A stretch of DNA of 64,000 nt from the NCBI GenBank assembly GCA_033391075.1, contig JAWPMV010000001.1, positions 5,518,001 to 5,582,000 of the forward strand. The letters run 5' to 3'. The first letter of the stretch is position 1; the number at the start of each line of letters is the position of its first letter. The stretch comes from Bacteroidia bacterium (GTDB lineage Bacteria > Bacteroidota > Bacteroidia > J057). The position numbers were made by a program, and so were the translations under genes. Below the pieces are notes generated by a model. That model was not told where the DNA came from. It saw nothing but the letters and a program-made list of their open reading frames with translations, and made no database searches. This document shows, one piece after another, positions 4,350 through 62,448 of the stretch.

Positions 4350-4552
4350 ATTTTTAATTTTCCAGAGCGCAAAAATGGCAAAAAATTTGATAAAATCACG
4401 GGCATGATAGACCGCGTCCGAGATTGCTTACGCAAAATTCAGACCTTTCGATATATTTTGCACTCTTTTCTACGAATGGAGCAACCAAAATAGGTCAAAA
4501 GAGTATCTATTCTCTGAGAGACCCTCGTTATAGGAAATAATTTGTTTTAAAT

Positions 4553-5548: not shown

Positions 5549-6422
5549 TTTCCTGCAGCAAACAAAGCGGCGAATTTCTGATTATGTTTATAACAGAAAT
5601 TCGCCATTTTTTTTATGGGTGAATCAAAATCACCAACTTGTATCCGTGATACCTATCCAATTTTCGCATGCAACCGGCTTTCCAGCAGAAAGCTATTCCT
5701 ATTTTTTCAAACAATTGGAACCTCATCCTGTAAGTTATGTTCCGGTTTTTGGCATGGGTCGATATCGACTTCGAAACTCATGGCGAAACATGATCGAAGA
5801 ACTCATTGAGGATATAGAGATAAAACATAAAGAGCCGGTTATTGGAATCGGGCACTCCTTTGGTGCAGTCCTGACTTTCTGGGCAGCACAAAAAGCACCC
5901 GAACTATTTGAGAAAATCATCCTGATTGATCCTCCTTTGCTGAGCCTTCGAATCAGGTTGTTTTCAGCTATGGCCAGAAGTATTGGGATTGCAGATCAGG
6001 TCATACCCATAGCAAGAAATGCAAAGAAACGCCGGGATGAGTTTAGCTCTTTGGATGAAGCGAGAAACTTTTGGAAGCCCAAACGACTATTCAGAAGCTT
6101 TCATCCTGAATGCTTCGAAGATTATGTTCAGAGTAGTCTGGTGCCGGATGGTTCTGATTTCACCTTGCGCATTCCTGCTGCCCTGGAGTCCAAAATGTTT
6201 GTATACAGTCCGATCAGAATCGGGCACGGAAAATTCGATATGCCGAGCTACTACCTTTATCCGAAAAAAGGAAGTGTAATGGTCGGGACTTCCTTTAAAG
6301 AACAAAAGAAGCGATTCAAAAACACTAAATTTATTTCCATCGAAAAAGGCGGACATATGTTTCCCCTCGAATATCCTCATGAGACTGCCGCTTTGTTAAA
6401 AGAACTGATCGCCGAGGAATAA
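5499..6422 (+). CDS. Alpha/beta hydrolase
   Basis: The alpha/beta-hydrolase core is clear: oxyanion region FSHATGFPAESY, nucleophile elbow GIGHSFGA (Ser in GHSFG), strand KIILIDPPLL, and catalytic-His segment KGGHMFPLEYP near the C-terminus. No signal peptide, so probably cytoplasmic; the substrate is unknown. The start is uncertain. The only upstream in-frame ATG (5499) lies inside the preceding gene. In-frame GTG codons at 5619 and 5646 would give proteins that start close to the conserved core. The ATG at 5615, just after a run of eight T, is in the wrong frame. The 5' limit is the longest option. Confidence 0.8.
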   Translation: MSRKLRISFSVPVQVDNFLQQTKRRISDYVYNRNSPFFLWVNQNHQLVSVIPIQFSHATGFPAESYSYFFKQLEPHPVSYVPVFGMGRYRLRNSWRNMIEELIEDIEIKHKEPVIGIGHSFGAVLTFWAAQKAPELFEKIILIDPPLLSLRIRLFSAMARSIGIADQVIPIARNAKKRRDEFSSLDEARNFWKPKRLFRSFHPECFEDYVQSSLVPDGSDFTLRIPAALESKMFVYSPIRIGHGKFDMPSYYLYPKKGSVMVGTSFKEQKKRFKNTKFISIEKGGHMFPLEYPHETAALLKELIAEE

Positions 6423-6454
6423 AGAATGATTTTCCCATTTTAATATATACCCCT

Positions 6455-6913
6455 ATGAAGGAACAATTCCTCATCCACAAAGTAACTCGTCAAAACGCGC
6501 TCGATATTTCTAAGGCTTTCTCTCCAGAGCAACTGAATTTCATTCCACCCGCTTTCAATAATAACCTCATTTGGAACCTGGGACATATGGTCGTTACTCA
6601 ACAGCGACTGATTTATGGCTTGACGGGAAATAAAATTAACATCGATAAAAGCCTGGTGGAAAAATACCGTATAGGTACATATCCCAAAGAGATCATTAGT
6701 GAAGCAGAGATCCTTCTTATACAGGAACTGATGATAAGTACTTCGGATCAGTGTCAAAAGGATTTTGAAGCCGGACTTTTCAAAGAATGCAGAAAATATC
6801 CGACCAGCTATGGCTTTGAAATCAAGTCGGTAGAAGACGCTATTCTCTTTAACAATATTCACGAAAGCATGCACCTGGGCAATTTGTTATCCATGAGAAA
6901 ATTGATCAACTGA
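6455..6913 (+). CDS. DinB-family protein
   Basis: 152 residues with the four-helix DinB pattern. The likely metal-binding histidines are H44 (NLGHMV) and H136/H140 (NNIHESMHLG). DinB-like proteins of this size are putative metal-dependent thiol S-transferases or damage-inducible proteins. The small cytoplasmic form has no assigned substrate. It starts 33 bases after the hydrolase gene and is probably cotranscribed with it. Confidence 0.85.
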   Translation: MKEQFLIHKVTRQNALDISKAFSPEQLNFIPPAFNNNLIWNLGHMVVTQQRLIYGLTGNKINIDKSLVEKYRIGTYPKEIISEAEILLIQELMISTSDQCQKDFEAGLFKECRKYPTSYGFEIKSVEDAILFNNIHESMHLGNLLSMRKLIN

Positions 6914-6934
6914 TAAATTGGGCAACTTTTCGGT

Positions 6935-6965
6935 TTTGCTATCCTCAAAAGGAAGCCTAAATTTG
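6935..6965 (+). promoter_or_regulatory. Bacteroidota-type promoter for the glycosyltransferase
   Basis: TTTG (6935-6938), 19 bases, then TAAATTTG (6958-6965) matches the Bacteroidota sigma-A consensus TTTG / TAnnTTTG. The predicted transcription start is only a few bases before the ATG at 6975, giving a nearly leaderless mRNA. This also supports 6975 over the TTG at 6918. Confidence 0.7.
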
Positions 6966-6974
6966 CTGCCTGAG

Positions 6975-8156
6975 ATGAAATTACTGATTCTGACATCCCG
7001 CTTTCCCTATCCCATTGAAAAAGGGGATAAGCTCAGGATATATCACCAAATCAGACATCTTTCACAAAAGCATGAAGTTCATCTCATTGCTATCAGTGAT
7101 CAGGAGGTTGAAGAAGCGCATCAGCAGCATCTTGAATCTTTTTGCAGCTCTATACACATCTTTCCTATTAGCAAGGGAGGAATAGCATTTTCTTTGTTAA
7201 AAGGCCTTTTTGGAGTAGCCCCCTTTCAGGTTCACTATTTTTACCGTAAAAGGATTCACAAAAAAATCCTCAAAATCGCAGAAGAGCTAAAACCGGATCG
7301 GATATATTGCCAGCTCATTCGTATGGCTCCTTATGTTAAAGGTCTGGATGCTCAGAAAAGTCTCGATTATATGGATGCTTTTTCCCTGGGTATGAAAAGA
7401 CGGGCCAAGCATCACGTTGGAATCAAGCAGGTTCTTTTTCGATGGGAGGCATCTAAGTTAAAATCTTATGAGGAGAAAGTCTTTACGGACTTTAACAGTC
7501 ATTCCATCATTTCTGAGCAGGACAGAGAAGCATTAAATACTCCTTACAAAGACCAAATACAATTGATCCCAAATGGGGTAGATACCGAATTCTTCCAGCC
7601 AAAAAAAGAGGAAGCTGAATACGATCTGGTTTTTGTGGGAAACCTGGGTTATTCTCCCAATATCCTCGCTGCTAAATACCTCGCTACTCAACTACTACCA
7701 AGAATTAGGAAGGACTTACCTGAAACTCGCCTTTTACTTGCAGGTGCCAGGCCTGTAAAGCAAATATTAGAACTGGAAAAAGAAGCAGGTGTAAGTATCG
7801 GAGGTTGGTATGAAGATATACGTGATGCCTATGCCTCAGGAAAAATATTTGTAGCACCTTTATTCTCCGGTTCGGGCCAGCAAAACAAAATACTGGAAGC
7901 TATGGCTATGGGGATTCCCTGTGTGAGCACTTCCATTGTCAACAAATCTATTGGAGCAAAATCGCCTAGGGATATTTTATTGGGAGATGATCTCGAAAGC
8001 CTGGCAGAGCACTGCATCTTTTTACTAAAAAATCCGGACCATATTCTGATACAAGCAAGCCATGGGAGAGCATTTGTTGAAAATAATTATGCCTGGTCCA
8101 GAAGCCATAAGCAATTAGACGAACTTTTTAGCAGAAGTGTAAGCCTTACTCGCTAA
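6975..8156 (+). CDS. GT4-family glycosyltransferase
   Basis: 393 residues from the ATG at 6975; an upstream in-frame TTG (6918) would add a tail without homology character. The N-terminal domain begins LLILTSRFPYPIEKGDKLR, typical of the group related to the EpsH1-associated sugar transferases (TIGR03087-like). The C-terminal GT-B domain has LIPNGVDTEFF, FVGNLGYSPN and the nucleotide-sugar motif SGSGQQNKILEAMAMGIP, in which the conserved Glu is present. It probably transfers a sugar from a nucleotide donor in envelope or exopolysaccharide synthesis; acceptor unknown. No polysaccharide cluster surrounds it. Confidence 0.9.
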   Translation: MKLLILTSRFPYPIEKGDKLRIYHQIRHLSQKHEVHLIAISDQEVEEAHQQHLESFCSSIHIFPISKGGIAFSLLKGLFGVAPFQVHYFYRKRIHKKILKIAEELKPDRIYCQLIRMAPYVKGLDAQKSLDYMDAFSLGMKRRAKHHVGIKQVLFRWEASKLKSYEEKVFTDFNSHSIISEQDREALNTPYKDQIQLIPNGVDTEFFQPKKEEAEYDLVFVGNLGYSPNILAAKYLATQLLPRIRKDLPETRLLLAGARPVKQILELEKEAGVSIGGWYEDIRDAYASGKIFVAPLFSGSGQQNKILEAMAMGIPCVSTSIVNKSIGAKSPRDILLGDDLESLAEHCIFLLKNPDHILIQASHGRAFVENNYAWSRSHKQLDELFSRSVSLTR

Positions 8157-47880: not shown

Positions 47881-50800
47881 TTAAGGAGCTTTTAAGGCTG
47901 CTGAGCGTGTCCTTGAAGGGGTTTCTCCAAATTCCTCGGCATACGTCCTGGAAAAATATCTGGGATCAGAAAATCCTACGGAATAGGCTATTTCTGAGAT
48001 ATTCAGATTGGCATGCTGGAGCATATTCCGGGCTTTATGCAAACGAATCGAGCGTACAAAGTGAGAGGTAGGTCTACCTGTCAAGGCCTTTATTTTCTGA
48101 TGAAGTTGTGTCCGACTAAGCCCCATTTCTCTACAGAGATCCACCACCTTAAAGTCCTCTTCATCCAAATGCTCTTCAACCACTTGCTTCAATTGTAGGA
48201 TGAATTCATCCTCTTGTGTAGGCTCTATCACATCCTTTTCACCTATCCAATCCGGCTCCTGATATCTTTTCTGCAATTCTTGTCGAATTTTCAATAATTG
48301 CTCCAATCGAATGCTTAGTTCCTCTGGATTAAATGGCTTGGCCAAATAAGCATCTGCTCCATGTTTGAAACCTTCTATCCGGGACTGCTCATCAAATCTT
48401 GCAGTCAGTAATACAACCGGAATGTGGCTGATGCGGGGATCCGTTTTCAATTCTGCACAAAACTCAAAGCCATTTTTATTGGGCATGATCACATCACTGA
48501 TAATCAAATCGGGCACATGCTTTAGGGCCAAATCAAAACCTTCCTGTCCATCCCTTGCCATAAACAATTCATATTTCCCTTCCAGGCAACTCAGCAGGTA
48601 TTGCATCAAATCGGCATTATCTTCAACGATCAGAAGAGATGCTCGACCGCCAGCTTTTGGACAGCTGATCTCCTCCTTACTTTCAACTTGCTTGTATGGA
48701 CTTATGCGAAGATTATTTCCACTGAACTCCTTCAACTGAGCCTTTTTTGTAACGGGAAGCAATACTTCAAAACTACTCCCTTTAGCCAGTTTACTGGATA
48801 CTTTTATATCCCCATGCATGAGCTTGATCAATTGATAGGTTAAAGCCAGTCCAATGCCTGTACTTTGCGCTGAGCCTTTTTCCTCTACCTGATAAAATCG
48901 ATCGAATATAAAGGGCAGGTTCTCCGGAGCAATCCCCTTTCCAGTGTCTTTTACCCGAATCCGCAACATTTCTGTTTCATGCTCCCGATAAACATCCAAT
49001 TGCAAATAAATATTCCCCTTATCTGGAGTGAATTTGATGGCATTGCTAAGCAGGTTGGATATGATATGCAAGAGTTTATCCGGATCATAATCCATAAAGT
49101 ATTGAGACTCCGAACTCAGGAAATGCAATTGCTGGTCTTTTAAGAGCGCAAGCGACTGAAAGGACTCAAATACATACTGGATATATTGAATGATATCTCC
49201 CTGGATATATTGGGTGCGTAATTTTCCGGCCGAAAGTTTTTGTAAATCCAGCAATTGATTGATCAGATTGAGTAGACTTGATCCATTCCTTTCGATCATA
49301 TTTACCCCTCTATCCAGCCATTTTTCTGGGGAATGTTTGATTTGATTTGCCATCCCCAAAATAACGGTCAAAGGAGTTCGGAATTCATGAGAGAGATTGG
49401 TGAAAATTTGACTTTTAAGTTCATCCAGCTCTTTGAGTTTCTCTCTTTGTTTTTCGACTCGATCTTTTTCCTTTTTCAACTCACGGGTCCTGATATTCAC
49501 AATATCCTCCAGTCGGTTATTTCGACCTTCCAAATGACGAAATCTCCAATATAAAAGTGCACGTATCAAAAGCCCCAGCAATAACAAATAAAGCGTATAG
49601 GTCCAGGGACTCCGATACCAGGGGGCGGCTATGCGAAAACTCAAACTGCTTTCGTTTGCCAATTTACCTGCATAGTCCCTTGCCCGCACCCGAAATACAT
49701 ATTTACCTTCGGGTATATTTGTGTAGTCTTTCTGACTTTCATTGGTCCAGGGAGACCATGTTTTATCAAAGCCTTGCAAAAAGACCTGATAGCTATTTTT
49801 CTGAGGGTCTTTTAGGAAAGGAGCAGCATATCGAAACCTGATTTCATTATCAGCATATTGTAATGTTTTTTCGAGCCGATCCCTTCCGGGTGCACCTCCA
49901 AAAACCAAAGAATCTCCTTTTACATAAACAGAGCGGATCTGGGTCTTTGGAGTTTTGATCTGTTTTTCTTTGGGATGTAAAGCTGAATTGAACCGAATCA
50001 AGCCATGTGTCCCAGCAAACCAGATATGATCGGGATTTTCAGGATCAGGATAAATCCAGTCAATAAATTCGCCGACCACTGATTGGCGTAAGTGGATGTT
50101 GGGATCAGCGATATAATCTCCTTCCTGGCCTTTTTTAAATTTCCTGATTTCTACCTCTCCGTTTTCTATGATTGCCAACCATAGATTTCCTTTTTGATCC
50201 TGTGCAATGCGATCAATCAATAATCCCGGAGCAGACAAAGCCTTCCCAAATCGAGTGTCCGGGACAAATACCTTTTGCAAATCATTATACCTCAAGAGAC
50301 CTTCCGCCGTATATAGCAACAACTTTTTATCTATATAGGCCATGCGAAGGAAGCCAGATGGCAAGGCATGTTTAGGGCCGAAAAAATCAATTTCATAAGG
50401 TGCCATTTCGAGTTCAAAGCTTCCATCTTCCTTTTTCCTGATCTGGCTCTGCTCATCTTGCCTAAAACTGATTCGGATAAACTCATCTGTCCAGGTAGAT
50501 ATCCATAGATGACGGCTATCCTCTTCGATCACATTGAGAATTTTGCCTTTGATCTCAGGAATTTTTTCGGAGGAAATCCAGCTTTGTCCGGATTTCTTCA
50601 TCAGGCGTAAACCGTCTTTCTCTCCAAGCCATACCATTTTGGGATCATAGCGGGATTGATTCAGGGTAAATGCATGTTCCTGGCTAAGTCTATGTACCCC
50701 CTTATCTTTTATTTGATATACTCCGTGAGCATTTGCAATCAATACTTCTTGATCTACAGGCAATATTTTCCAACTTTGATCATTGATTCCGGGCAGCTTG

Positions 50801-52008
50801 CTAAAGCTGCTGAATTCTCCCCTCTTTCTTTCTTCTTCATCCAGCAGATATACTCCATCTTCTGTGGCCAAACAAAATTTGCCCATATGTCGCGTCATAT
50901 GGTAAACAGGCACATCCAATCCCAGTCGATGATCAAAGATCGAAAGGGGGGAAGGGTACTCAAATCGGCTAATCCCATCTCCCAGGCTCAACCAGATACT
51001 GTTCTCACGATCCTGAAAAAGGTTTATGATAAACTGATCCTGAAGTCCCTGTTTTTCATCCAAAATGAATTTTATCTCTCCAGCCTTATCCATAACTACC
51101 AGTCCTCCCCTTAAACTTGGAAAGGCTATTTCCCCATTAAGCAAAGCAACAGCATTCATATAGAGTCGATTTTCCTCAAAAAATGATTCCAACTCTTTAC
51201 TTATGGAGAAATCCTTGAACTCCTTGCCGTCATAGGTATATAGTTTATTGGTACTGGCAGAACCTGTCAGGGCAAATACATCTGTTCCTTTTATGCTAAA
51301 GGGCAGAAAGAAGTTGAAAAACATCTGAGCGAAAGATTCTCCACCCTCTATCAATTCCAGGCTATCTCCCACTACTTTTTTAATTCCCTGATGATAGGAA
51401 TTGAGGTAGATTTCATCATTTAGCACAAAAGCTGAGGCAATCTTTTCTTCTTTGTCCCAAAAGAAAAAAGAGCCGTTTACATCCCTGGTCTCTAAAATTT
51501 CTGAAGAATGATCCTGCCATCGAAAAAGATAGCGCTCTGTTTGGAAATAAATCCCTTCAGAAGTTGAAAAGGTATTCCATACATCATTAAAATTTCTGCG
51601 ATTTTCCGGAAGGAATTGTAGCAGTGATACGAAGCTTAACTCTCCTAAAGAATCCGCTTTCAAATATCCCAGATCACCTAAGGCTCCAATAAAAATCGTC
51701 CCCTGATCATCCACTGCCAATGAGCGAATAACCGGATTTCCAGGCACGGGGATTTTTCGCCAGTTGACTCCATCGTATTCCAGGATACCACTGTTGTTGG
51801 CGACATAGATAAACCCTCGAGGGTCCTGAACTATGTCCCAATTTTGAATAAATCCGTCGTACTCTTCGTGGGTGAAGTTTCTAATGATAGGTATTCCCAA
51901 TTCCTCGGGATTTCCTTGAGCCGATAGGTTTATACCCCCAAAAAAATGACAGGTAGCTAATGCTACTACAAAGGTCAGCGTCTTGAATAAGCACATATTG
52001 TTACCCAA
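47881..52008 (-). CDS. Hybrid two-component system sensor/regulator (HTCS)
   Basis: 1375 residues, the usual size. Order: signal peptide (1-30), two seven-bladed periplasmic propellers (about 35-720, with blades such as GNLWLAIIENGEVEIRKF), Y_Y_Y domain (about 735-795, QGFDKTWSPWTNES), one membrane helix (about 797-815), histidine kinase with H in NLSHEFRTPLTV (about 872), ATPase, response-regulator receiver (LLIVEDNADL near 1123, phospho-Asp in IISDVIMPNKNG near 1169), and an AraC-type HTH (about 1270-1370, FSDPRYFSRTYAEEFGETPS). HTCS proteins sense oligosaccharides and activate degradation genes. It probably controls the neighbouring sulfatase/transport genes. Confidence 0.96.
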   Translation of the reverse strand: MGNNMCLFKTLTFVVALATCHFFGGINLSAQGNPEELGIPIIRNFTHEEYDGFIQNWDIVQDPRGFIYVANNSGILEYDGVNWRKIPVPGNPVIRSLAVDDQGTIFIGALGDLGYLKADSLGELSFVSLLQFLPENRRNFNDVWNTFSTSEGIYFQTERYLFRWQDHSSEILETRDVNGSFFFWDKEEKIASAFVLNDEIYLNSYHQGIKKVVGDSLELIEGGESFAQMFFNFFLPFSIKGTDVFALTGSASTNKLYTYDGKEFKDFSISKELESFFEENRLYMNAVALLNGEIAFPSLRGGLVVMDKAGEIKFILDEKQGLQDQFIINLFQDRENSIWLSLGDGISRFEYPSPLSIFDHRLGLDVPVYHMTRHMGKFCLATEDGVYLLDEEERKRGEFSSFSKLPGINDQSWKILPVDQEVLIANAHGVYQIKDKGVHRLSQEHAFTLNQSRYDPKMVWLGEKDGLRLMKKSGQSWISSEKIPEIKGKILNVIEEDSRHLWISTWTDEFIRISFRQDEQSQIRKKEDGSFELEMAPYEIDFFGPKHALPSGFLRMAYIDKKLLLYTAEGLLRYNDLQKVFVPDTRFGKALSAPGLLIDRIAQDQKGNLWLAIIENGEVEIRKFKKGQEGDYIADPNIHLRQSVVGEFIDWIYPDPENPDHIWFAGTHGLIRFNSALHPKEKQIKTPKTQIRSVYVKGDSLVFGGAPGRDRLEKTLQYADNEIRFRYAAPFLKDPQKNSYQVFLQGFDKTWSPWTNESQKDYTNIPEGKYVFRVRARDYAGKLANESSLSFRIAAPWYRSPWTYTLYLLLLGLLIRALLYWRFRHLEGRNNRLEDIVNIRTRELKKEKDRVEKQREKLKELDELKSQIFTNLSHEFRTPLTVILGMANQIKHSPEKWLDRGVNMIERNGSSLLNLINQLLDLQKLSAGKLRTQYIQGDIIQYIQYVFESFQSLALLKDQQLHFLSSESQYFMDYDPDKLLHIISNLLSNAIKFTPDKGNIYLQLDVYREHETEMLRIRVKDTGKGIAPENLPFIFDRFYQVEEKGSAQSTGIGLALTYQLIKLMHGDIKVSSKLAKGSSFEVLLPVTKKAQLKEFSGNNLRISPYKQVESKEEISCPKAGGRASLLIVEDNADLMQYLLSCLEGKYELFMARDGQEGFDLALKHVPDLIISDVIMPNKNGFEFCAELKTDPRISHIPVVLLTARFDEQSRIEGFKHGADAYLAKPFNPEELSIRLEQLLKIRQELQKRYQEPDWIGEKDVIEPTQEDEFILQLKQVVEEHLDEEDFKVVDLCREMGLSRTQLHQKIKALTGRPTSHFVRSIRLHKARNMLQHANLNISEIAYSVGFSDPRYFSRTYAEEFGETPSRTRSAALKAP

Positions 52009-52355: not shown

Positions 52356-53834
52356 TTACCTGCCGGGATGCTTTCCCCACTCTTTTCTTCGGCTTTGGTC
52401 AAATTCCGGATTTTCCTGGGGCAATTCGGCGCCTACCTCTTTCCTCCATTTCCTAAGTTCAAGAGATAATTCCTCAACAAGAGCAGCCTGAATTGAAGCG
52501 AGATTTTTACTTTCTCCCGGATCATTTTCCAGATCATATAGTTCAAATCGATCCTCCGTGAAAAATTCAATCAACTTCCATTTCCCTTTTCTAATCGCTC
52601 CCGCAGGTATATCGTGATGATATACCGGATAATGCCAGAACAGACTTCGATCAGAAGGATCATTACTTCCTGTTAATATGGAAAGCATACTTTCTCCGTC
52701 TAATTTCTGAGTCTTAGCAGCCTCTATTCCTGCCAACTCCATGAAGGTGGGATAAAAATCCACACTGCTTACTAAAACATCAGACAGCGATCCGGCTTTG
52801 ATTTTTCCTGGCCATTTTATGAGTAAGGGCTCTCTGATTCCTCCCTCATACAGGGTTCCTTTTTCTGCCCGTAAAGGAGCATTAGAAGTTGCCACATATT
52901 GGAGGTCAGAACCTTCATAAATGGCAAGTTTACTTTTTGCGAGTAGAGGAATTTCGTCAAATCGACTCCTAAGCCCTCCATTATCTGAAAAGAAAACAAG
53001 CAGGGTATTTTCACTAAGTCCCAGGGCATCCAGTTTATTCACCACTCGCTCCAAACTACGATCTATATGTTCAACCATAGCCGCATAGATAGCATTGCCG
53101 GGATAATCCTTAGGTTTTTCTTTGGCCAAATATTTTTCGATCAACTCCCTATCTGCATCCAGTTGAACATGCACATCATAATGAGAGAGAAAAAGAAAGA
53201 AGGGCTCGTCCTTATTTTCTTCTATAAAATCAAGGCTATAATCCGTAAGGACTTCAGAAAGACGCACTTCATCATTGAGGCTAGAATCCATAGGGCGAAT
53301 GGCCTTCTTACTTTTCAGATTATAGAAAGTTCCGCCTTGTTGTATCCGCCAATCTTCATATCCCTGATTTCCCGGCATATGTTGATCTCCCCATCCCAAA
53401 TGCCATTTGCCGAAGTAGGCGGTTTTATAAGCAGCTGTTTGCAAGATTTCTCCCAGACTCACAATTTCTTCCGGCAAATACTGGGTGCGATTTATCGGAA
53501 CGATATGACTTTCATAGGGCCGCCAATGACCGGGAATAAAATCGGTGATTCCCACATGAGCTGGATATTGACCGGATTGTATAGATGCACGCGTAGGCGA
53601 ACAAACCGGTGCTGCGGCATAGGCATTGGTAAATCTCATACCTTCTGCAGCCAGTTTATCGAGATTAGGAGTTTCATTGAAAGTGTTTCCATAGACCCCC
53701 AAATCTGCCCAGCCTAAATCATCGGCCAGTATAAAGACAATATTGGGGGGACTGTTTTGCTCTTCTACAGCGACTTGCTGACAAGCCAAACAAAAGAATA
53801 ACAGATAGAGGTATAAAAATGTACAATAGTTCAT
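52356..53834 (-). CDS. Type I sulfatase lipoprotein
   Basis: 492 residues from the ATG at 53834 (MNYCTFLYLYLLFFCLAC, a lipoprotein signal); an in-frame codon at 53876 gives a less likely lead. The sulfatase signature CSPTRASIQSG (C78-x-P-x-R82) is the site for formylglycine maturation. Metal-binding FILADDLGWADLG (D38, D39) and the second Asp/Asn pair in LLVFFSDNGG are intact. It removes sulfate esters from polysaccharides or related substrates; an anSME-type maturase must be elsewhere. Divergent from the TIM-barrel gene. Confidence 0.94.
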   Translation of the reverse strand: MNYCTFLYLYLLFFCLACQQVAVEEQNSPPNIVFILADDLGWADLGVYGNTFNETPNLDKLAAEGMRFTNAYAAAPVCSPTRASIQSGQYPAHVGITDFIPGHWRPYESHIVPINRTQYLPEEIVSLGEILQTAAYKTAYFGKWHLGWGDQHMPGNQGYEDWRIQQGGTFYNLKSKKAIRPMDSSLNDEVRLSEVLTDYSLDFIEENKDEPFFLFLSHYDVHVQLDADRELIEKYLAKEKPKDYPGNAIYAAMVEHIDRSLERVVNKLDALGLSENTLLVFFSDNGGLRSRFDEIPLLAKSKLAIYEGSDLQYVATSNAPLRAEKGTLYEGGIREPLLIKWPGKIKAGSLSDVLVSSVDFYPTFMELAGIEAAKTQKLDGESMLSILTGSNDPSDRSLFWHYPVYHHDIPAGAIRKGKWKLIEFFTEDRFELYDLENDPGESKNLASIQAALVEELSLELRKWRKEVGAELPQENPEFDQSRRKEWGKHPGR

Positions 53835-53904
53835 GTCTTTGGCTTTATCTCCTGATTGAAAAATAAGAAGATTCATATAACTTGTATCAAACTACTAATT
53901 ACAA

Positions 53905-54948
53905 ATGCCTCAAAATAATTTCCCAAAACTTCACAATGCTGCATGGCCGGGTGTAGTAGGTAAAGGACCTGATTCCGAACCGGCGATTTCTCTGGATAAA
54001 ATGTTAGACCTGACTGCTTCGGCGGAGGTTGATGGAGTCAAATTTGACGGATTTGATCTCTTTCTCTATGATCCACATATCGACATTGACAGTTCGGATG
54101 ATGGAATAAAGGCACTGGCCGATAAAGCTGCTTCCCGAGGCCTGGAGATCGGCAGCGTAGTAGCTCCTATCTGGCAGGATACCGGAGGAGGATCAGCGAT
54201 GGGGTCGAAAGAAGATAGAGAGAATTTTTTGACTCAGGTCAGAAAAGGATGTCATATTGCAAAGCGCTTACGAGAGTTAGGGATACGTCCGCATGGAATC
54301 GTCAGAATAGACTCCTCTTGTAGCCCGGAGGATTGGGCGAAAAATCCTGCAGGAAATACAAAACTTATAGCCGACACCTTTCGCCAGGCTTGCGATATAG
54401 CTGCCGATTATGGAGAAAGCCTGGCAGCAGAAGGGGAGATTTGTTGGGGGGGGATGCATGGCTGGAAAGCCATGTTAGATACGCTCGAAGCAGTAGATCG
54501 ACCTAATATGGGCTTTCAGGCAGATATGGCTCATACCCTCCTTTATCTATTGGGGTATAATAAACCGGAAGACCGAATCTTGCCACAGGATTTTGATTGG
54601 CAGGATAGAGAAAGCCTTACTGAAGGCCTGAAGACACTGACGAAAGCGCTTCGGCCCTGGACAATTGATTTCCATGTTGCTCAAAACGATGGAACGGTAC
54701 ATGGCAGTGGTTCTCATGACAAAACCGGTCGTCATTGCCAGGCCCTTGATCCTAATGGAAAATTAGATATCGCAGTTGATGCCGGGCATTGGTTGCGGGA
54801 GGAAAATGGAGAACTTAGCAAAAAATTCAAGCACATCTGCTGGGACGGCTGCATGTTTCCCAATGCTGTCATGCTGGAGCAGCAAACCTGGAACGATATC
54901 CTGGCTGCCATGATAAAAGTACGAGATATGCACGGCTGGGTGGAGTAG
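53905..54948 (+). CDS. TIM-barrel sugar isomerase/epimerase-like protein
   Basis: 347 residues, cytoplasmic. AP-endonuclease-2 / xylose-isomerase-like barrel: [20 protein letters not shown], strand [25 protein letters not shown] (metal Glu), [16 protein letters not shown] (Asp, His), [20 protein letters not shown] (His), [11 protein letters not shown]. These match the family metal-site layout, longer than the usual 280 residues. Probably isomerises a sugar or sugar-like cleavage product. The 70-bp divergent gap with the sulfatase suggests joint control. Confidence 0.8.
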
Positions 54949-54960
54949 GTTTGCGTAGAA

Positions 54961-55014
54961 TACCGGCTTAATCTTCGCAAAAAATGCGAAGATTAAGCCG
55001 GTAAATAATTTTTT
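54961..55014. terminator. 19-bp perfect hairpin terminator between convergent genes
   Basis: Arms TACCGGCTTAATCTTCGCA (54961-54979) and TGCGAAGATTAAGCCGGTA (54985-55003), loop AAAAA, followed on the plus strand by AAATAATTTTTT. It ends the TIM-barrel transcript, and its T run overlaps the tctA stop codon. Confidence 0.85.
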
Positions 55015-56485
55015 AGTCTTTCACATACTTCCTTCTCACATATATCCCGGCTGCAATCACCAGAATAGTCGCAATCATCAAGCCCAATGCAATGGGCCTT
55101 TCGAAGAAACTACTCAGGTCCCATTTAGACTTGATGCTGGAGACCATGAAATTTTGCTCCATGATTTTTCCCAGAACCATTCCCAATACAACTTGAGGTA
55201 GGGGAAAGCCTCCTCTTCGCAGACCAAAAGCCATGATTCCCATGGCCAGCATTACCCATATATCAAAAGAATTGTTGTTGATCGCATATGCACCAACGAT
55301 ACAAAGGCCGCTGATCACGCTAAGTAGCATGGGAACGGGTACTTTGATCAAACGAGCAGCCAGTCTGGCGCTCAAATATCCATAGAGCGGAAGAAGGACA
55401 ATATTGGCCAAAAGGAAGGTCAGATATAGAGAATACAAGAGTTCGGGTTGTTGGTCGAAAAGCAATGGCCCGGGAGTTATTCCTTTCATCAAAAACACTC
55501 CCAAAACGATAGCAGTAATCGTATCTCCCGGTAGGCCCAGCGTTAAGGCAGGAATCCAGGCACTCGCTACGGCTGAATTATTACTACTGGTTCCAGAGAG
55601 GACTACCTGATCCTCTTTTTCCTCCGAATCCTGAGCAGTTCCCCTCATTTTCTGGAAACTAGAGGATACCCAGGCACCGATATCAGCTCCGGCTCCCGGA
55701 AGGAAACCCACAAACACGCCAATCAGTGCAGATCGAAGTACCAACCATTTTTCCTTTAGAATAAATAATAGAGGTTTCACATAAAATAATCGGGAAGAGG
55801 CTTCTCTCTCTCCTTCTGGCGAATCAGGTGTCTTTTTAGGTCTATAGAGATATTCCAGGACTTCTGAGAAACCAAAGAGACCTATCATAGCTACTATATA
55901 ATCCAGGCCTCCCAACAGGTTCGTACTTTCAAAATGGAATCGCGGGTATCCCAAAGTAGGATCGATGCCTACTGTAGCCAGAAAGAGACCGATCAATAAG
56001 GAAACAAAAGATTTCAGGGGCGAACCTCCGGAAGCAAAAATACCTGCAGTTAGCCCTAAAACGGCAATCCAAAAGTATTCAAAGGAGGAAAACTGACGGG
56101 CAATGGCCGCTATTCCACTAGCACTAACAACCAATAATAAGGTCCCAATAATACCACCAACTGCTGAACCCATCGCACTCAAACCCAGACTATAGATCGC
56201 TCCTTTTTTGCGCGAAAGCGAATAGAGTTCTTCCAGATAAGCTGCACTTGCCGGAGTTCCCGGTATTTTGGCTACCGTAGAACCTACATCTCCGGCATAT
56301 ATGGCAACGGAAGAAATCGCAATGATTGCCGGCAAGGCCACCATAGGGTCTAAAAAGAAAGCAACCGGAATAAATAAAGCTACGGCCAAAGTTGCTGTCA
56401 ATCCCGGTATCGCCCCGAAGATAGAACCATAGAGCCCCCCAATAATCAGGGCCAATAATGCCTCCCAACTAAAAATACTACTCAT
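55013..56485 (-). CDS. tctA: Tripartite tricarboxylate transporter, large permease TctA
   Basis: 490 residues with about 11-12 membrane helices. TctA family blocks: IFGAIPGLTATLAVALFIPV (N-terminal signature), GFLPGAGADIGAWVSSSFQK (about 258-277), and a mirrored second half with LTLGLPGDTITAIVLG. It uses the proton or sodium gradient to import the carboxylate delivered by TctC. It starts with an ATGA overlap with tctB. The family is common in Proteobacteria and unusual in Bacteroidota. Confidence 0.95.
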   Translation of the reverse strand: MSSIFSWEALLALIIGGLYGSIFGAIPGLTATLAVALFIPVAFFLDPMVALPAIIAISSVAIYAGDVGSTVAKIPGTPASAAYLEELYSLSRKKGAIYSLGLSAMGSAVGGIIGTLLLVVSASGIAAIARQFSSFEYFWIAVLGLTAGIFASGGSPLKSFVSLLIGLFLATVGIDPTLGYPRFHFESTNLLGGLDYIVAMIGLFGFSEVLEYLYRPKKTPDSPEGEREASSRLFYVKPLLFILKEKWLVLRSALIGVFVGFLPGAGADIGAWVSSSFQKMRGTAQDSEEKEDQVVLSGTSSNNSAVASAWIPALTLGLPGDTITAIVLGVFLMKGITPGPLLFDQQPELLYSLYLTFLLANIVLLPLYGYLSARLAARLIKVPVPMLLSVISGLCIVGAYAINNNSFDIWVMLAMGIMAFGLRRGGFPLPQVVLGMVLGKIMEQNFMVSSIKSKWDLSSFFERPIALGLMIATILVIAAGIYVRRKYVKD

Positions 56486-56940
56486 AAGGGTACGTTTAAG
56501 AGGACATTAAAAATGAGATAAACAGCTCCCGTAGCTCCTACTCCCAGCAAAGCACTTTTTACATAAGAAATCCTGAGCATTAAGGCTATGAGAAAAACCG
56601 TTATAGCCAATGGAATCAAAAAGCCTATAGAATCAAAAACGAGTGGAAATATGGCGACCACAGCTATTCCTCCCAGTAAAGAAAGAAGTCGCTGCTCTTC
56701 AGATTTGTCTTTATCCGAACTTGGGGTTTTCTCTTTCAAGGCTTTAGGCAAATACTTTCCCAAAAGGAAAATACCTGATATAGCAAATCCCAAAGCTATG
56801 AATTGAGGAAATAGAGCCGGGCCGGGATAGCCTTCTTCCAAATCCGGGAATCCGGATGCATAGCCGTAAATAGCTAAGCCGAGGATGAGCAATATGCCTC
56901 CATTCAGGCTTTCTTTATAAGCAGGGGTCCAGTTTTTCAT
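56482..56940 (-). CDS. tctB: Tripartite tricarboxylate transporter, small permease TctB
   Basis: 152 residues with four membrane helices (about 12-29, 41-62, 85-118 and 125-147), the normal TctB layout (LNGGILLILGLAIYGYASGF; FPQFIALGFAISGIFLLGK). The small subunit of the permease. ATGA overlaps with tctC upstream and tctA downstream show translational coupling of all three subunits. Confidence 0.9.
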   Translation of the reverse strand: MKNWTPAYKESLNGGILLILGLAIYGYASGFPDLEEGYPGPALFPQFIALGFAISGIFLLGKYLPKALKEKTPSSDKDKSEEQRLLSLLGGIAVVAIFPLVFDSIGFLIPLAITVFLIALMLRISYVKSALLGVGATGAVYLIFNVLLNVPL

Positions 56941-57911
56941 GGGCTAAGATTTGCCTCTTTCATCAAACGTCCATTTACCTCATCTTCTTCTTTCATGAAA
57001 TCTGCCAATTCCTGACCTGTCATGATGCGAATAGTAGAACCTGCCTCCGTCAAGGCTTTTACAAAATCAGGATCTTTGGTGGCAATGTTCAAGGCAGAAT
57101 CGAGGGTTGATCTTACATTTGCGGGAATATTGGGGGGAGCACAGAGAGAAACCCAGCCTCCGATAGACCAATCTATTCCTTGCTCATTGAGGGTGGGAAT
57201 ATCCGGAAATTCTTCTTGTCTTTCCTCTGCCATAACCGCCAATACTTTTACCTGTCCTGCTTGCCTCAAGGCATCTACTTCGGACAAAGAAGCCGTAACA
57301 ACTTCAACTCCTCCAGCAATCAATTCCTGTAGGGCGGGAGCCGCTCCCTGACTGGGGACCCAGGGGATATCTGATTCATTCATCCCGGCTGCCTTTAGCA
57401 TACCGACCCTTGCCAAATCCCAAATACCACCTCGACCTGTACCGGAAGCCTGAATATCTCCGGGACTGGCTTTCGCATCATCCAGGAGTTCCTGCAAATT
57501 GTTCCAGGGAGCATCCGCACGAACAGTTACTCCTGCAGGATTATGAATCAAAAGAGCCAGCGGCGTATAATCCTCATGTGATAGGGTAGTAAGTTTCATA
57601 TGTCGCATCATGCTGATCTCAACAGTTACAGCTCCCAGTGTGTATCCATCAGGAGCAGCTTTGGAGATAGCAGTATGTCCTACAACTCCACTACCTCCGG
57701 TTCGGTTGATTACATTGACAGGAGCACCCAGGGCTTTTTGCAAAACTGCCGCCATAGCCCTCGAACTGATATCCGTCATACCACCCGGAGACCAGGGAAC
57801 CAGGTATTTGACGGCCCTGTTGGGATAAGCATTATTTGAGGAAGAGTTGCAGGAAAGCATCGTAGCTAATAGCAAGAGGATGATTCCTGTAAGTAGTAGT
57901 TTAGTTTTCAT
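56937..57911 (-). CDS. tctC: Tripartite tricarboxylate transporter, substrate-binding lipoprotein TctC
   Basis: 324 residues. Lipoprotein signal LLLLATMLSC (Cys at 21), then the TctC/Bug fold: YPNRAVKYLVPWSPGGMTDI, RTGGSGVVGHTAISKAAPDG, GYTLGAV and FPDIPTLNEQGIDWSIGGWV. Classical Proteobacterial TctC is a soluble periplasmic protein; a lipid anchor fits Bacteroidota habit. It captures a di- or tricarboxylate or related acid. Likely first gene of the tctCBA operon; an imperfect inverted repeat (57939-58021) lies upstream. Confidence 0.93.
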   Translation of the reverse strand: MKTKLLLTGIILLLLATMLSCNSSSNNAYPNRAVKYLVPWSPGGMTDISSRAMAAVLQKALGAPVNVINRTGGSGVVGHTAISKAAPDGYTLGAVTVEISMMRHMKLTTLSHEDYTPLALLIHNPAGVTVRADAPWNNLQELLDDAKASPGDIQASGTGRGGIWDLARVGMLKAAGMNESDIPWVPSQGAAPALQELIAGGVEVVTASLSEVDALRQAGQVKVLAVMAEERQEEFPDIPTLNEQGIDWSIGGWVSLCAPPNIPANVRSTLDSALNIATKDPDFVKALTEAGSTIRIMTGQELADFMKEEDEVNGRLMKEANLSP

Positions 57912-58032: not shown

Positions 58033-61000
58033 TTACTTACCCAACTGAGATAAATACTTCAGCAAATCCCGCAGCTCTTCTTCAGAAAGGGAGTTTGTCA
58101 ATCCTGCTGGCATCATAGAAATCGGACTTATGAATAATTTCGCGATTTCTTCATTGGGTACATTAATGATTTTATTATTGGCATCCATGATCACCGCTCC
58201 TGTATCACTCCTCCTTTGTAGCGTACCACTGACCGTTGTTCCATCCTTTCGGGTTAGGACCACTGTCTCATAGCCTTGTTTGATGTTATCGCTAGGATTC
58301 AGAAGCGATTCCAATATGCCAGATGTCGGGCTAAAAGTCCCCAGGGTACTCAGATCAGGTCCCAGCTTTCCTCCTTGGCCATTGAGTTTATGACAAGTAG
58401 AACAAAGGAGGCTAGGACGCTTATAGATTTGTGCTCCTTTACTGGCATTTCCCTCTTTTTCAACACTTGCCAGAAAAGCAGATCTTTTAGCAAGTACAGG
58501 ATTGGCCTTTTTATTTTCTATGGGCAAGGCAGCTTCAAGAACTCCTAACAATTTTTGCAGGTCTCGGCCGGAAGATTGTACCATACTGACTCCTTTAGCA
58601 GCGATCCTCGGATCAAGTTTTTTAGCTTTCAGAGCCTGTGCGAGGATATCCGGTCCTTCTTCCCGATTCATATAGGCTCCAATAAGCAATTCTGCATAAT
58701 CGACTGAACCTATCTGGCCTAATATACTGGCATTGATCATGGCTGCCTCTCCGGGCTTTTCGCTGGCCCAGGCGGCAGCACTTGTTGCTCTTACGCCCAG
58801 GTTCTTTCCTCCACGAGCCTGTTTGATTACTTCATCTATTTCTCCCATGGCCATCAATGCCATAGAAGCTGTATGTCTTTCTGCAGGATCAAGAGCGGGA
58901 TTGGAGGCTATACCCGCAACTTTATCCTTCATCTCTTTTACTTTCCAGGTACCCGCCAAATCAAGCCCTAATATTCGTTCTTCTGGCTTCTTACTTCCGA
59001 GCAATTCTGTGAGTTTATTAGCATCTCGGGGAACAATCTCAGTAGAGTTTGACAGTCCCGCTAATAGCTCCTGGTCTTTCTCCTGCATAGCCTTCTCAAA
59101 TAACCAGTCTATTTCTTCCTGTCCTCCATTTCCGGCGAGCATGAGTAAGATGTTTTTCGCTTCCTCTCCTTTGATCTTCCCTTCTTGTACCAAAGGAAGC
59201 AGAGACTTCATCGCATCTTTATCTCCACTGGCACTTAGGGCAAAACCCATTCTATCAGCCTTCCCTTCAAAAATTCGATCTCCGTTTTTTAGTTTCGGTA
59301 ACCAATAGGCTTCTCCTTCTCTGGCCGTGTTCCAAAGGGCAAAATCAAGGTTTTCATCCATTGGCAAATCCACGGCTTGCATGGCCATTTCCACGGCTGC
59401 AAAATTGCCCATCTCCCGCAGCACATGTACCGCTTCCAATCTCACCTGCGGATGTTCATCTCTGATTACTTTCGCCAGCAGATCCATGCCTTCTATCTCC
59501 TCTTTCCAGTGTCCCAACATTCTTGTAGCAGCCGCCCGAATATGATGATCTTTTGCGTCCAGCAAACGGTCGATCAATTTTTTATGGGGAACATTAATAG
59601 CAGCGTGTAGCCAAAGGGCTTCCAGTAAATGATGTTCATAGCGAGGATGCTTTTTATCTTGACGCATCACCCAGAACATGAGTTTGTCTGCACGAAGTCC
59701 TTGCTCAACCAGTTCCCGATTGGCCATGAGGCGAGTGAGTTGGGAATTGGATTTGAGAGAATCCAGAAGATGGGCCACTCCTACTCCTTTTATTTGGGGA
59801 AAAGGCTTGCTGGAATTCCCTTTCCGGGTCAATCTCCAAATCCTTCCATGCGACTTATCCCGCATCGGATGGTGAAAATCAACTTCTCCATGAGCGATAA
59901 TGGGATTGTACCAGTCGATGATATAGATAGCCCCATCAGGTCCTGTTTTGATATCCACGGGACGGTAGGATCGATGGCTGGAATGTATCACGGTTTCTAC
60001 TTCTTCTGCGCTATACCCACTTCCACTTTCGGTGAGTTGATAACGGACAGTTCTGTTTGCACGATAGTCATTTGCCAATAAGCTCCCTTGCCATCCTTCG
60101 GGCATCTGTTCGCTGTAGACTACTTCTGCAGCTGTATTTTTGGGTTTTCCGGGAATCAATCCTGGCAAAACACGTGCAGCACCTACGGCGGTATTATGTG
60201 CTGCGCCGGGGAAAAGATAATGCGGCCCACTTCCTCCAGCTCCATCCGTTCCAAATGCCTGGCCCCACTGATCAAAAGCCTGCCCCCAGGGATTTACCAT
60301 ACCTGTGCTAAATACTTCCAGTCTTTCTGTCTCAGGCCGAAACTCCCATATACCACTTCCATTGAGGCGACGACTTCCAAAAGCTGTTTCTATAAAGCTG
60401 TTGATGTATATGGATTGGGTAAAGTAAAGATCGCCCCAGGGTGCCCAGCGAAATCCATGGATGGTATGATGCATATCTGCAATCCCAAAACCGGAATAGA
60501 CCAGTCTCTTTTCATCTGCAACATCATCCCCATCCTTATCGGCATAAAACCATACTTCAGATGTATTACACAAATAAGCTCCTCCCTTAACCGGCATAAC
60601 AGAATGAGGCACAACCAGCCCTTCAGCAAAAACAGTATGCTTATCTGCCACTCCATCCTGATCTGTATCTTCCAGTATGACAATGCGATCATTGGGTTCT
60701 CTGCCTGGAAATATCTGGGGATAGGTAGAACTGGAAGCTACCCAGGCCCGGCCTTGATTATCCCAGTTAAGGTTGATCGGATTCACGATCCAGGGATCTT
60801 TGGCAAAAAGGTTAATTTCAAATCCTTCCGGAATGGTGAAAGCCGCCAATTCTTCTGAAACATCTGGCATGGGAACTTCTTTCGGCACATAATACTCCTT
60901 GTATTCCTGTGGTGATTTCCAGGCTTCCAGGATTTCTACTTCCAGTCTATGTTCTTGTGGAATTTTTAATCTGGTAATGAGTTCTTCCTGTTCCTGTACC

Positions 61001-62448
61001 AGCCGGTCAAAGTCTTCCATCTCCTTGCTCAGATGTCCCATTTCATGACGACGAAAGAGAAAGATATAAGCTTTATTCAGGGGATTGAGTCTCAACCTTT
61101 GCAGACGATTCTTTTCAATGATGGTGCTTCTGAGTTTTTCCCATTGTGCTTTTTGGGGCTTGATAAACAGTCTTTCATCCAATTCTCTCTCTCTCACTAC
61201 TTCACCATCGACCTTTACCAAATGTTCGCGATCAACTTTCAAGTTGGCATAGGGACTGAGTTTATCGGATTTGATGTCGAAGCGATAGCCTGTAGCAGTA
61301 GGAGTAAAGTCATTGATGGAAAGGCCGGAAGATGCCTGTACTTTCCCCTGTTCATCCATTTCCAACTGGAAAGACTCCTGGGCATTGATTCCCAGATTTT
61401 GGAGCATCAACATGGCCATATCTGCATAGGCGGATTCACTGAGATGAATGCCATTCTCCGTAAAGCTTCCTCCCATTTGACGCTTATTGAAATAGGCAAA
61501 TAAGTCAATGAAAGGATAGTTTGCTTTCCTTGCTTCTTCCTGGATAAAATCACGGGCTTTCGCCAAACGCTCATTTCGTTTCTCTATTTCCTTTTCTGTA
61601 TGAGCAAAGGCTTCATGTGGATTAGGGGAAAGTAAAATAAGCTTCGCCCCCAGAGAATCAATGACCCTGAGGAGGTTTCTATAGTTTCTTTTGAAAGCAT
61701 CAAAATCGTCAGAAGCATCTTTGAAGGCCATTTCTGCCCCATAGGCAAAAATTACTGTTGAAGGATTGGCTTCTATCACTTGATTTTTCATTTCTGCATA
61801 GCCAAATCCTTGCTCCGAAGTGGGAGGTTTCCAGGATTTGGTATTATGGGCTGAGCCAAATTCAGAGCGAGCGGTTCCTTCGACATCATCACCCGGCCAT
61901 CCCAAATTTCTGAATACGAGATTCTGATAGGGGTATTCGGCATTTAGAGCTGTCTCGAAAAATGCATATTTCTCCATGCGGGAGACCAAACTTCCCCCCA
62001 ATAAAATGATCCGATTTTCTTTTCCTGAGGAAGCACTCGTAAAACTAGCGGCCTGGCTGTAGCCCAGGGAAGTATTAGCCTGATCCCAGACTTTGACTTT
62101 CCAGAAATATTCTTTCCCTTGCGCTAACTCCTGTCCTCTATATATGATATCCTCATGCTGGCTACTAGCCCTTTTTCCACTGTCCCACAAATCTCCTATT
62201 CCAGCTGCAAGTTTTGCTTTATCACTAGCCACTATAATCTGATAAGCCTTCTGTTGTGAAATCTCTGCAGAGTTTTTCCAACTAAAGGCATATAGATCTA
62301 CATCTATTCCTATGGTTTGTTCGACGAATTTGGTTTGCAATTCCTGAGGGGCATCTGAAGAAATTTTTTGCCCGGGCAATTGCCCACTTTGGCAGGAAAC
62401 GAGAAATATAAGGCAAATGCCGAGTAAAGACAGCGTAGTAGTTTTCAT
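58033..62448 (-). CDS. SGNH-like / dehydrogenase propeller / HEAT / cytochrome c fusion lipoprotein
   Basis: 1471 residues from the ATG at 62448 (MKTTTLSLLGICLIFLVSC, lipoprotein signal); the open frame continues to 62517. Order: fibronectin-like region (about 30-130), SGNH-type hydrolase-like domain (about 145-350, ILLGGSLVSRM and a late GIHLSESAYADM), linker (350-530), PVC-type membrane-bound-dehydrogenase propeller (about 535-875, TIPEGFEINLFAKDPWIVNP onward), HEAT repeats (about 895-1310), and a heme domain of the TIGR02603 type with CSTCH at about 1348-1352. It probably oxidises or cleaves a carbohydrate-like compound outside the cell. It is convergent with no gene; tctC follows it on the same strand. 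Confidence 0.88.
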   Translation of the reverse strand: MKTTTLSLLGICLIFLVSCQSGQLPGQKISSDAPQELQTKFVEQTIGIDVDLYAFSWKNSAEISQQKAYQIIVASDKAKLAAGIGDLWDSGKRASSQHEDIIYRGQELAQGKEYFWKVKVWDQANTSLGYSQAASFTSASSGKENRIILLGGSLVSRMEKYAFFETALNAEYPYQNLVFRNLGWPGDDVEGTARSEFGSAHNTKSWKPPTSEQGFGYAEMKNQVIEANPSTVIFAYGAEMAFKDASDDFDAFKRNYRNLLRVIDSLGAKLILLSPNPHEAFAHTEKEIEKRNERLAKARDFIQEEARKANYPFIDLFAYFNKRQMGGSFTENGIHLSESAYADMAMLMLQNLGINAQESFQLEMDEQGKVQASSGLSINDFTPTATGYRFDIKSDKLSPYANLKVDREHLVKVDGEVVRERELDERLFIKPQKAQWEKLRSTIIEKNRLQRLRLNPLNKAYIFLFRRHEMGHLSKEMEDFDRLVQEQEELITRLKIPQEHRLEVEILEAWKSPQEYKEYYVPKEVPMPDVSEELAAFTIPEGFEINLFAKDPWIVNPINLNWDNQGRAWVASSSTYPQIFPGREPNDRIVILEDTDQDGVADKHTVFAEGLVVPHSVMPVKGGAYLCNTSEVWFYADKDGDDVADEKRLVYSGFGIADMHHTIHGFRWAPWGDLYFTQSIYINSFIETAFGSRRLNGSGIWEFRPETERLEVFSTGMVNPWGQAFDQWGQAFGTDGAGGSGPHYLFPGAAHNTAVGAARVLPGLIPGKPKNTAAEVVYSEQMPEGWQGSLLANDYRANRTVRYQLTESGSGYSAEEVETVIHSSHRSYRPVDIKTGPDGAIYIIDWYNPIIAHGEVDFHHPMRDKSHGRIWRLTRKGNSSKPFPQIKGVGVAHLLDSLKSNSQLTRLMANRELVEQGLRADKLMFWVMRQDKKHPRYEHHLLEALWLHAAINVPHKKLIDRLLDAKDHHIRAAATRMLGHWKEEIEGMDLLAKVIRDEHPQVRLEAVHVLREMGNFAAVEMAMQAVDLPMDENLDFALWNTAREGEAYWLPKLKNGDRIFEGKADRMGFALSASGDKDAMKSLLPLVQEGKIKGEEAKNILLMLAGNGGQEEIDWLFEKAMQEKDQELLAGLSNSTEIVPRDANKLTELLGSKKPEERILGLDLAGTWKVKEMKDKVAGIASNPALDPAERHTASMALMAMGEIDEVIKQARGGKNLGVRATSAAAWASEKPGEAAMINASILGQIGSVDYAELLIGAYMNREEGPDILAQALKAKKLDPRIAAKGVSMVQSSGRDLQKLLGVLEAALPIENKKANPVLAKRSAFLASVEKEGNASKGAQIYKRPSLLCSTCHKLNGQGGKLGPDLSTLGTFSPTSGILESLLNPSDNIKQGYETVVLTRKDGTTVSGTLQRRSDTGAVIMDANNKIINVPNEEIAKLFISPISMMPAGLTNSLSEEELRDLLKYLSQLGK

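Follow-up and report, generated by a model that had tools for sequence, protein, structure and literature searches.

Within a 64,000-nucleotide stretch of a Bacteroidia bacterium genome (GenBank assembly GCA_033391075.1, contig JAWPMV010000001.1, positions 5,518,001 to 5,582,000; hereafter the window), one gene encodes a protein that joins an SGNH-fold domain to the core of a PVC-type cytochrome. With moderate confidence, we read its product as a PVC-type cytochrome protein, secreted and probably anchored by a lipid, that acts on carbohydrates outside the cytoplasm, its front domains binding the substrate. The observed parts of this explanation are the domain content, the heme motif, the SGNH fold, the residue changes at the SGNH site and the conservation of the fusion. 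The original prediction, drawn from the sequence, had proposed that de-acylation and electron transfer are combined in one exported lipoprotein. Our results make de-acylation improbable and the fusion not rare, which leaves the rewired SGNH site as the interesting remainder.

The gene is a single intact open reading frame (P0001) on the minus strand, running without an internal stop from an ATG at 62448 to a stop codon at 58033-58035, and the plus strand holds 34 stops across 58033-62448. This agrees with the 1471-residue fusion that had been predicted without mention of a strand. The whole protein drew nine Pfam matches at E values up to 1. Lipobox motifs mark lipoproteins and, judged by eye, the N-terminus (MKTTT...LVSC) resembles a lipoprotein signal, as expected of an exported lipoprotein; lipid anchoring of the protein is suggested by this motif.

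Several searches bear out the predicted SGNH-like domain. Pfam Lipase_GDSL_2 matches residues 163-342 (E 5.9e-7), scoring 30.6 bits in the whole protein against a cut-off of 32.9 and 35.8 bits for the isolated domain, and Lipase_GDSL reaches 26.8 bits over a cut-off of 23.6. Searching the PDB with a profile built from 27 SGNH domains gives a match to entry 1yzf at E 8.1e-12. The AlphaFold model of the region, built from an alignment of two sequences, has a mean predicted local distance difference test (pLDDT) score of 49, and helices and strands alternate over its residues 145-355, as in SGNH enzymes. Fold searches with this low-scoring model do retrieve the SGNH fold: Foldseek matches acetylxylan esterase Axe2, TesA and Bacteroides acylhydrolases at E values of about 4e-6 to 1e-5, and the best VIA-align match is BT4096 (7br2_B, Z 15.9), with the other listed entries at Z 12-14, mostly over residues ~142-355. 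Taken together, sequence and model support an SGNH fold in this protein. Because the BT4096 match spans model residues 142-507, it also points to residues 366 to ~507 and the SGNH domain forming one module.

Although the fold is present, the residues that serve catalysis in SGNH hydrolases are only partly so. Ser153 and His335 are both found in the window copy, whereas the catalytic Asp is replaced by Asn332 and the oxyanion-hole Asn by Glu239. The outcomes that had been named as refuting the original prediction, lack of an SGNH fold or loss of the catalytic Ser and His, thus do not apply to this copy. The placement of block I, which contains Ser153, rests chiefly on the family alignment and the preceding predicted strand, as the PDB alignment over this block (4iyj) is weak at 3.6 bits. 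Gly183 provides the block II glycine, the choice of canonical glycine being our own assignment. For block III, GAND of 1yzf falls opposite GAEM, which sets Glu239 at the Asn position, and the D-G-x-H of block V aligns with N332-G-I-H335.

We extended this comparison to 54 related SGNH domains, comprising 19 that are fused to the propeller (window included), 12 that adjoin a heme gene and 23 from a family of ~1060-residue proteins; the alignment omits window fragments L010 and L013 and duplicate L028, and the Runella rosea SGNH protein stands outside the census. Among the fused domains, position 153 is Ser in 11, Thr in seven and Asn in one, position 239 is Glu in every case, position 332 is Asn in 17 with one Gly and one Asp, and position 335 is Gln in 15 and His in four. 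Ser and His occur together in only three of the 19 (window, L104 and L035). Asp187, Asp188, Arg194 and Gly333, meanwhile, are each invariant in the fused set. The domains adjoining a heme gene keep Ser in four of 12, His in eight, the block III Asn in three and the block V Asp in one. In every member of the ~1060-residue family the Ser position is occupied by Asn, and all 22 readable rows have Gln at the His position (one row lacks block V), with the block III Asn in 18 and the block V Asp in 22. The full Ser-Asn-Asp-His set appears in none of the 54 domains, and Ser-Asp-His in one (L037, without the Asn). This pattern looks like the loss of the hydrolase set while another set was conserved, and not like random decay.

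These counts bear directly on the original proposal, in which the SGNH domain deacylates a glycan through a Ser-His dyad and the propeller then oxidizes it. Ser153 and His335 are placed in blocks I and V as such a dyad would need, and the best fold matches include acetylxylan esterases and BT4096, which we take to be an active deacetylase. However, the fused domains have exchanged Asn for Glu (19/19), Asp for Asn (17/19), His for Gln (15/19) and Ser for Thr or Asn (8/19), and the sister family has given up Ser and His altogether (23/23 and 22/22 readable), so selection was evidently not for ester hydrolysis. With Glu239 and Asn332 in place of Asn and Asp, and no complete set in any domain compared, we dropped active de-acylation as the main function, and we consider the combined deacetylase and oxidoreductase quite improbable. 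Instead, the residue pattern suggests that the SGNH domain has been repurposed and that ester cleavage has probably been lost. A bolder idea, which we regard as tentative and rather doubtful, is that the pocket was remodeled to give a new conserved site (Asp187-Asp188, Arg194, Glu239, Gly333, mostly Asn332, and Gln or His at 335) that would bind or act on a glycan and hand it to the heme-linked propeller; with its extra front domains, the protein would then belong to a cytochrome-linked system for glycoside processing in Bacteroidota that has yet to be described.

The N-terminal region points toward carbohydrates as well. It had been called fibronectin-like, and a domain is indeed present there, but its identity is more exactly that of the N-terminal immunoglobulin-like (Ig) domain of glycoside hydrolase family 78 (GH78), because Pfam Ig_Rha78A_N matches it (E 2.9e-20) and NCBIfam rhamnosid_Flavobac, the N-terminal part of a flavobacterial alpha-L-rhamnosidase, matches residues 11-139, albeit far below that model's whole-protein cut-off. 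The region also matches the alpha-rhamnosidase of PDB 6i60 (E 2.4e-14). Eight plasmid places match the Ig region only; all six that are annotated are family 78 glycoside hydrolases or alpha-L-rhamnosidases, and two records carry no annotation.

Behind the SGNH module, the predicted PVC-type parts were recovered by the domain search, with TIGR02603, TIGR02604, DUF7133 and HEAT_2 all scoring over their curated cut-offs. The propeller-type region matches Pfam DUF7133 at E 2.3e-76 and NCBIfam TIGR02604 at 240.5 bits (cut-off 122.2). The HEAT domain is confirmed by the HEAT_2 match, and it is the exception in a structure model of residues 517-1471 that is otherwise poor (mean pLDDT 48.7). The C-terminal domain matches TIGR02603 at 109.8 bits (cut-off 68.15), with Pfam Cytochrom_C at 1336-1370, and contains the predicted CSTCH motif, intact and near the C-terminus. 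Its Met1446 aligns with Met292 of the anammox cytochrome Kustd1711, a residue that was mutated as the distal heme ligand in work that gives heme potentials of about +350 mV (PMC11791136, in the part available). Carried over to the window protein, such a potential would be appropriate for passing electrons to a terminal oxidase.

What the core does with a carbohydrate could be read differently. According to the part of the report available (PMC5342196), purified Lac161_ORF7 (GenBank AGW45552), a reported beta-galactosidase built on the same TIGR02604, HEAT_2 and Cytochrom_C core, hydrolyzed lactose with a Km of 1.8 mM. By analogy, the propeller and HEAT core might be a glycoside hydrolase in which the heme serves redox sensing or structure and not turnover. 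Against this, the Lac161_ORF7 activity is a single report whose available part describes assays with a glucose-oxidase kit, and all 27 aligned heme domains retain both CxxCH and the axial Met, a pattern that suggests electron transfer. We think a pure hydrolase of this kind unlikely.

The mechanism that we favor combines these elements. The most likely role of the Ig and SGNH-fold domains would be to bind a glycan or glycoside, or to present it; in the SGNH site, the ester-cleavage set has given way to a different conserved one (Asp187, Asp188, Arg194, Glu239, Gly333). The propeller (DUF7133/TIGR02604) would most likely be the main catalytic site, for either sugar oxidation or glycosidic cleavage, with the HEAT repeats presumably holding the other parts in one assembly. 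The C-terminal His/Met cytochrome c could then relay electrons to a carrier or oxidase in the periplasm, and in this organism TctCBA, the transporter whose genes begin 121 bp downstream, may import the product, perhaps a sugar-derived acid. The lactose hydrolysis of Lac161_ORF7, the GH78-type Ig domain and the sugar-related neighbors described below point to carbohydrate processing outside the cytoplasm; lipidation, the substrate class, the catalytic role of the propeller, the electron route and the TctCBA link are inferences.

A number of observations weigh against this reading. The prediction of a dehydrogenase propeller holds as far as membership of the TIGR02604/DUF7133 family goes, but the propeller fold itself is not confirmed: the model is poor in residues 531-905, and a PDB profile search with the propeller aligned nothing beyond short stretches of repeats in teneurin-like proteins. 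The propeller yielded no cofactor site, and the sole GSDH match in Pfam is weak (E 0.013). Lac161_ORF7, by the single report available in part, points to hydrolysis and not oxidation, and our searches found no measured activity for the window protein or its orthologues. The Ser-His dyad that survives in the window copy could retain weak activity. Among the relative loci, relatives of TctA or TctC occur in 0 of 27, so a conserved TctCBA adjacency is not supported and we dropped the idea of a conserved link. Nor does any type of neighbor occur in most of these loci by the searches made, the frequencies being raw counts uncorrected for background.

We wanted to know whether relatives keep the fusion, and they do. 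SGNH and propeller share one frame at 18 other loci (three of them, L111, L112 and L116, being N-terminal pieces that end at a sequence edge), which rules out a one-off fusion or an assembly error; four other loci (L097-L100) share the same five-domain order, so the order is no assembly artefact. Ig, SGNH, propeller and HEAT parts occur together in these four, which also have the heme domain, and in L109, whose sequence ends inside the HEAT region so that the C-terminal part is missing. Ten loci (L002, L034, L035, L101-L105, L107 and L108) have everything except the Ig domain. Separate, adjacent SGNH and heme frames occur at L036-L038, L040-L044, L110, L114 and L115 and in Runella rosea; at L113 and L132, SGNH and propeller are likewise separate adjacent frames, the propeller frame being a more distant relative. 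With these versions and the 23-member ~1060-residue family, the combination is not as uncommon as had been thought, and the window protein is unusual in detail but not unique.

In a quick tree of 32 cores, the 16 fused cores form one group (SH-like approximate likelihood-ratio test, 99), and the Ig-bearing rows branch outside the ten Ig-less rows. This topology fits a single fusion event in which the Ig domain was present early and lost once. The tree omits fragments L106, L111, L112, L113 and L116 and near-copies L043 and L044, includes six of the 23 members of the ~1060-residue family, and shows L050 on a very long branch.

More broadly, seven of the 22 genomes in the window's order match at E<=1e-30; other than the window's own gene, these matches align within query residues 475-1039. 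At least 43 of 395 genomes in a phylum sample match at the same threshold, and at least 20 of 199 in the family of G179 at E<=1e-100, both being lower bounds because at most two candidates per genome were scored. The ~1060-residue family was found at 23 loci in the order and phylum samples, with a C-terminal CxxCH in 23 of 23. Its member in the present genome is a second SGNH-propeller-HEAT-cytochrome gene (G000:C1:7616512-7618044; L009, L076), with Asn at the Ser and Gln at the His position. The same genome has 18 TIGR02604 matches at E<=0.001, with 11 over the cut-off, two of them through neighbors in the frame; the window gene and L009/L016 account for two matches each. In a separate observation, L066 and L075 (the Runella rosea plasmid and G211) have in common both the SGNH-heme pair and its nearby genes, which include an integrase; the two may be close kin, or the two-gene version may have spread as a mobile element.

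The positions of all features are collected in Table 1. The tripartite tricarboxylate transporter genes downstream are possible operon partners, and the hairpin beyond them is likely a bidirectional terminator that ends the transcription unit. The terminator scan found eight terminator-like sites against 8.6 expected from shuffles, no excess overall; another such site lies upstream of the gene at 62528-62505. Beyond the sulfatase gene, 47881-52008 encodes a 1375-residue hybrid two-component sensor-regulator (HTCS-like by eye), which could control the region; L002 carries a relative of it ~4.6 kb from its own copy of the fusion.

Table 1. Features of the gene and its downstream surroundings, in window coordinates
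Feature	Position	Strand	Basis or remark
Whole gene, 1471 residues: Ig, SGNH-like, accessory region, propeller, HEAT, cytochrome c	58033..62448	-	Open reading frame, Pfam, NCBIfam
Signal peptide (residues 1-19); lipobox-like LVSC ending in Cys19, a candidate lipidation site	62392..62448	-	Read by eye
Ig_Rha78A_N domain (35-137)	62038..62346	-	Pfam
SGNH-fold domain (143-365)	61354..62022	-	Pfam, PDB sequence matches, fold matches
Ser153, nucleophile position (block I, GGSL), present	61990..61992	-	Family alignment; directly after first predicted strand
Asp187-Asp188 (block II), outside canonical SGNH set	61885..61890	-	SGNH domain census; invariant in 19/19 fused orthologues
Glu239 at block III oxyanion-hole Asn position	61732..61734	-	Aligned to GAND of 1yzf; Glu in 19/19 fused
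Asn332-Gly-Ile-His335 (block V), Asp to Asn, His kept	61444..61455	-	PDB alignments, census
Accessory beta-rich and helical region (366-530)	60859..61353	-	To ~507 aligns with C-terminal part of BT4096; kept in orthologues
DUF7133/TIGR02604 propeller-type domain (531-905)	59734..60858	-	Pfam, NCBIfam
HEAT-repeat region (~930-1320)	58489..59661	-	HEAT_2 at 957-1024 (Pfam); run of paired helices, confident part of model
TIGR02603 cytochrome c domain (1333-1468)	58045..58452	-	NCBIfam; PDB 7zs0, E 1.1e-19
Heme-attachment motif CSTCH (1349-1353)	58390..58404	-	Sequence; CxxCH in 27/27 aligned heme domains (window among them)
Met1446, candidate sixth heme ligand	58111..58113	-	Aligned with Met292 of Kustd1711; Met in 27/27 heme domains
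tctC, tctB, tctA, tripartite tricarboxylate transporter genes	55013..57911	-	121 bp downstream, same strand
19-bp perfect inverted repeat with T-run, between converging tctA and TIM-barrel gene	54961..55003	+	Longest stem in terminator scan
AP_endonuc_2 TIM-barrel gene, opposing tctA	53905-54948		Beyond hairpin
Sulfatase gene	52356-53876		Beyond hairpin

We surveyed neighbors at 27 relative loci, whose flanks are of unequal length and in several cases ended by contig ends, and we give raw counts. Sulfatase relatives occur at five loci (L068, L071, L073, L121 and L123) in addition to the window, and PSCyt/PSD1 with DUF1501 at four (L068, L073, L117 and L121). Of ten selected neighbor proteins that were scanned, two had no Pfam match. 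Selected neighbors elsewhere include an AP_endonuc_2 TIM barrel beside L124, as in the window. At L073, a PSCyt1-PSCyt2-PSD1 protein with a Bac_rhamnosid_N module (4333-7233) adjoins the two-gene SGNH/heme pair. Freshwater Verrucomicrobia have PSCyt genes of unknown function with carbohydrate-binding modules, including Bac_rhamnosid_N, and sulfatase neighbors, according to the available part of a published account (PMC5615132).

Other neighbors would suit a protein that accepts electrons from a separate sugar dehydrogenase (GMC or Gfo/Idh) of a 3-keto-glycoside pathway, the propeller and SGNH domains acting as docking modules. A GMC oxidoreductase with Gluconate_2-dh3 follows L119, further GMC genes lie near L069 and on the Runella rosea plasmid, 3keto-disac_hyd is directly upstream of L127, and ThuA comes after L132. 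Each of these, however, is found in one to three of the 27 loci, raw counts that are lower bounds because selected neighbors were scanned, and the linkage to 3-keto-glycoside enzymes is scattered over few loci. The elimination of 3-keto-glycosides is treated in PMC10628242, the available part of which makes no mention of the window protein. We assign this electron-acceptor role a low probability, and continue to prefer a cytochrome protein that itself works on carbohydrates.

PVC-type cytochromes can be numerous in a single genome, as the 18 TIGR02604 matches here illustrate. Several lineages encode an SGNH partner, fused or as a neighboring gene, whose site is altered throughout; this partner would connect these heme proteins with carbohydrates as substrates and offers residues to mutate. 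For the SGNH-heme group, automated names of the kind "SGNH/GDSL hydrolase family protein" may also mislead.

In the literature, where subscription journals were thinly covered, we recognized no description of an SGNH-PVC cytochrome fusion, and functional data were found for one PVC-type cytochrome member, Lac161_ORF7. It shares the TIGR02604, HEAT_2 and Cytochrom_C core with the window protein, a likeness drawn from its description, which in the part available mentions no SGNH or Ig domain (PMC5342196). The window protein has the N-terminal Ig domain in common with GH78 alpha-L-rhamnosidases, but none of its nine Pfam matches is a family of the GH78 catalytic (alpha/alpha)6 domain. BT4096, a Bacteroides SGNH enzyme whose PDB entry (7br2) is titled as a diltiazem-metabolizing enzyme, resembles the SGNH module, whose canonical set is incomplete in the window protein; at 443 residues, the BT4096 chain leaves no room for the propeller and heme parts. 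Kustd1711 (PDB 7zs0), a diheme cytochrome, aligns with the C-terminal heme domain across 135 residues that take in CxxCH and the Met ligand, but has two heme domains in 316 residues and no propeller. Three groups offer further comparisons. PVC-type heme-binding CxxCH proteins share TIGR02604, TIGR02603, DUF7133 and HEAT_2, and the window protein differs from them by the SGNH-fold and GH78-type Ig domains in front. The two-gene version, such as that on Runella rosea plasmid NZ_CP030852 (WP_114070585, the source of the label quoted above), has the same two modules as an SGNH gene with a heme gene directly after it, unfused, and no Ig domain in the SGNH proteins scanned. The ~1060-residue proteins of Bacteroidota share SGNH and propeller domains, by sequence comparison, and a C-terminal CxxCH; the copy scanned (L076:6325-9546) has Pfam SGNH (below cut-off), DUF7133, HEAT_2 and Cytochrom_C, as the window protein does, but its cytochrome is of the Cytochrom_C/cbb3-like type and not TIGR02603, no Ig domain is detected in the family, and Asn and Gln stand where the window protein has Ser153 and His335.

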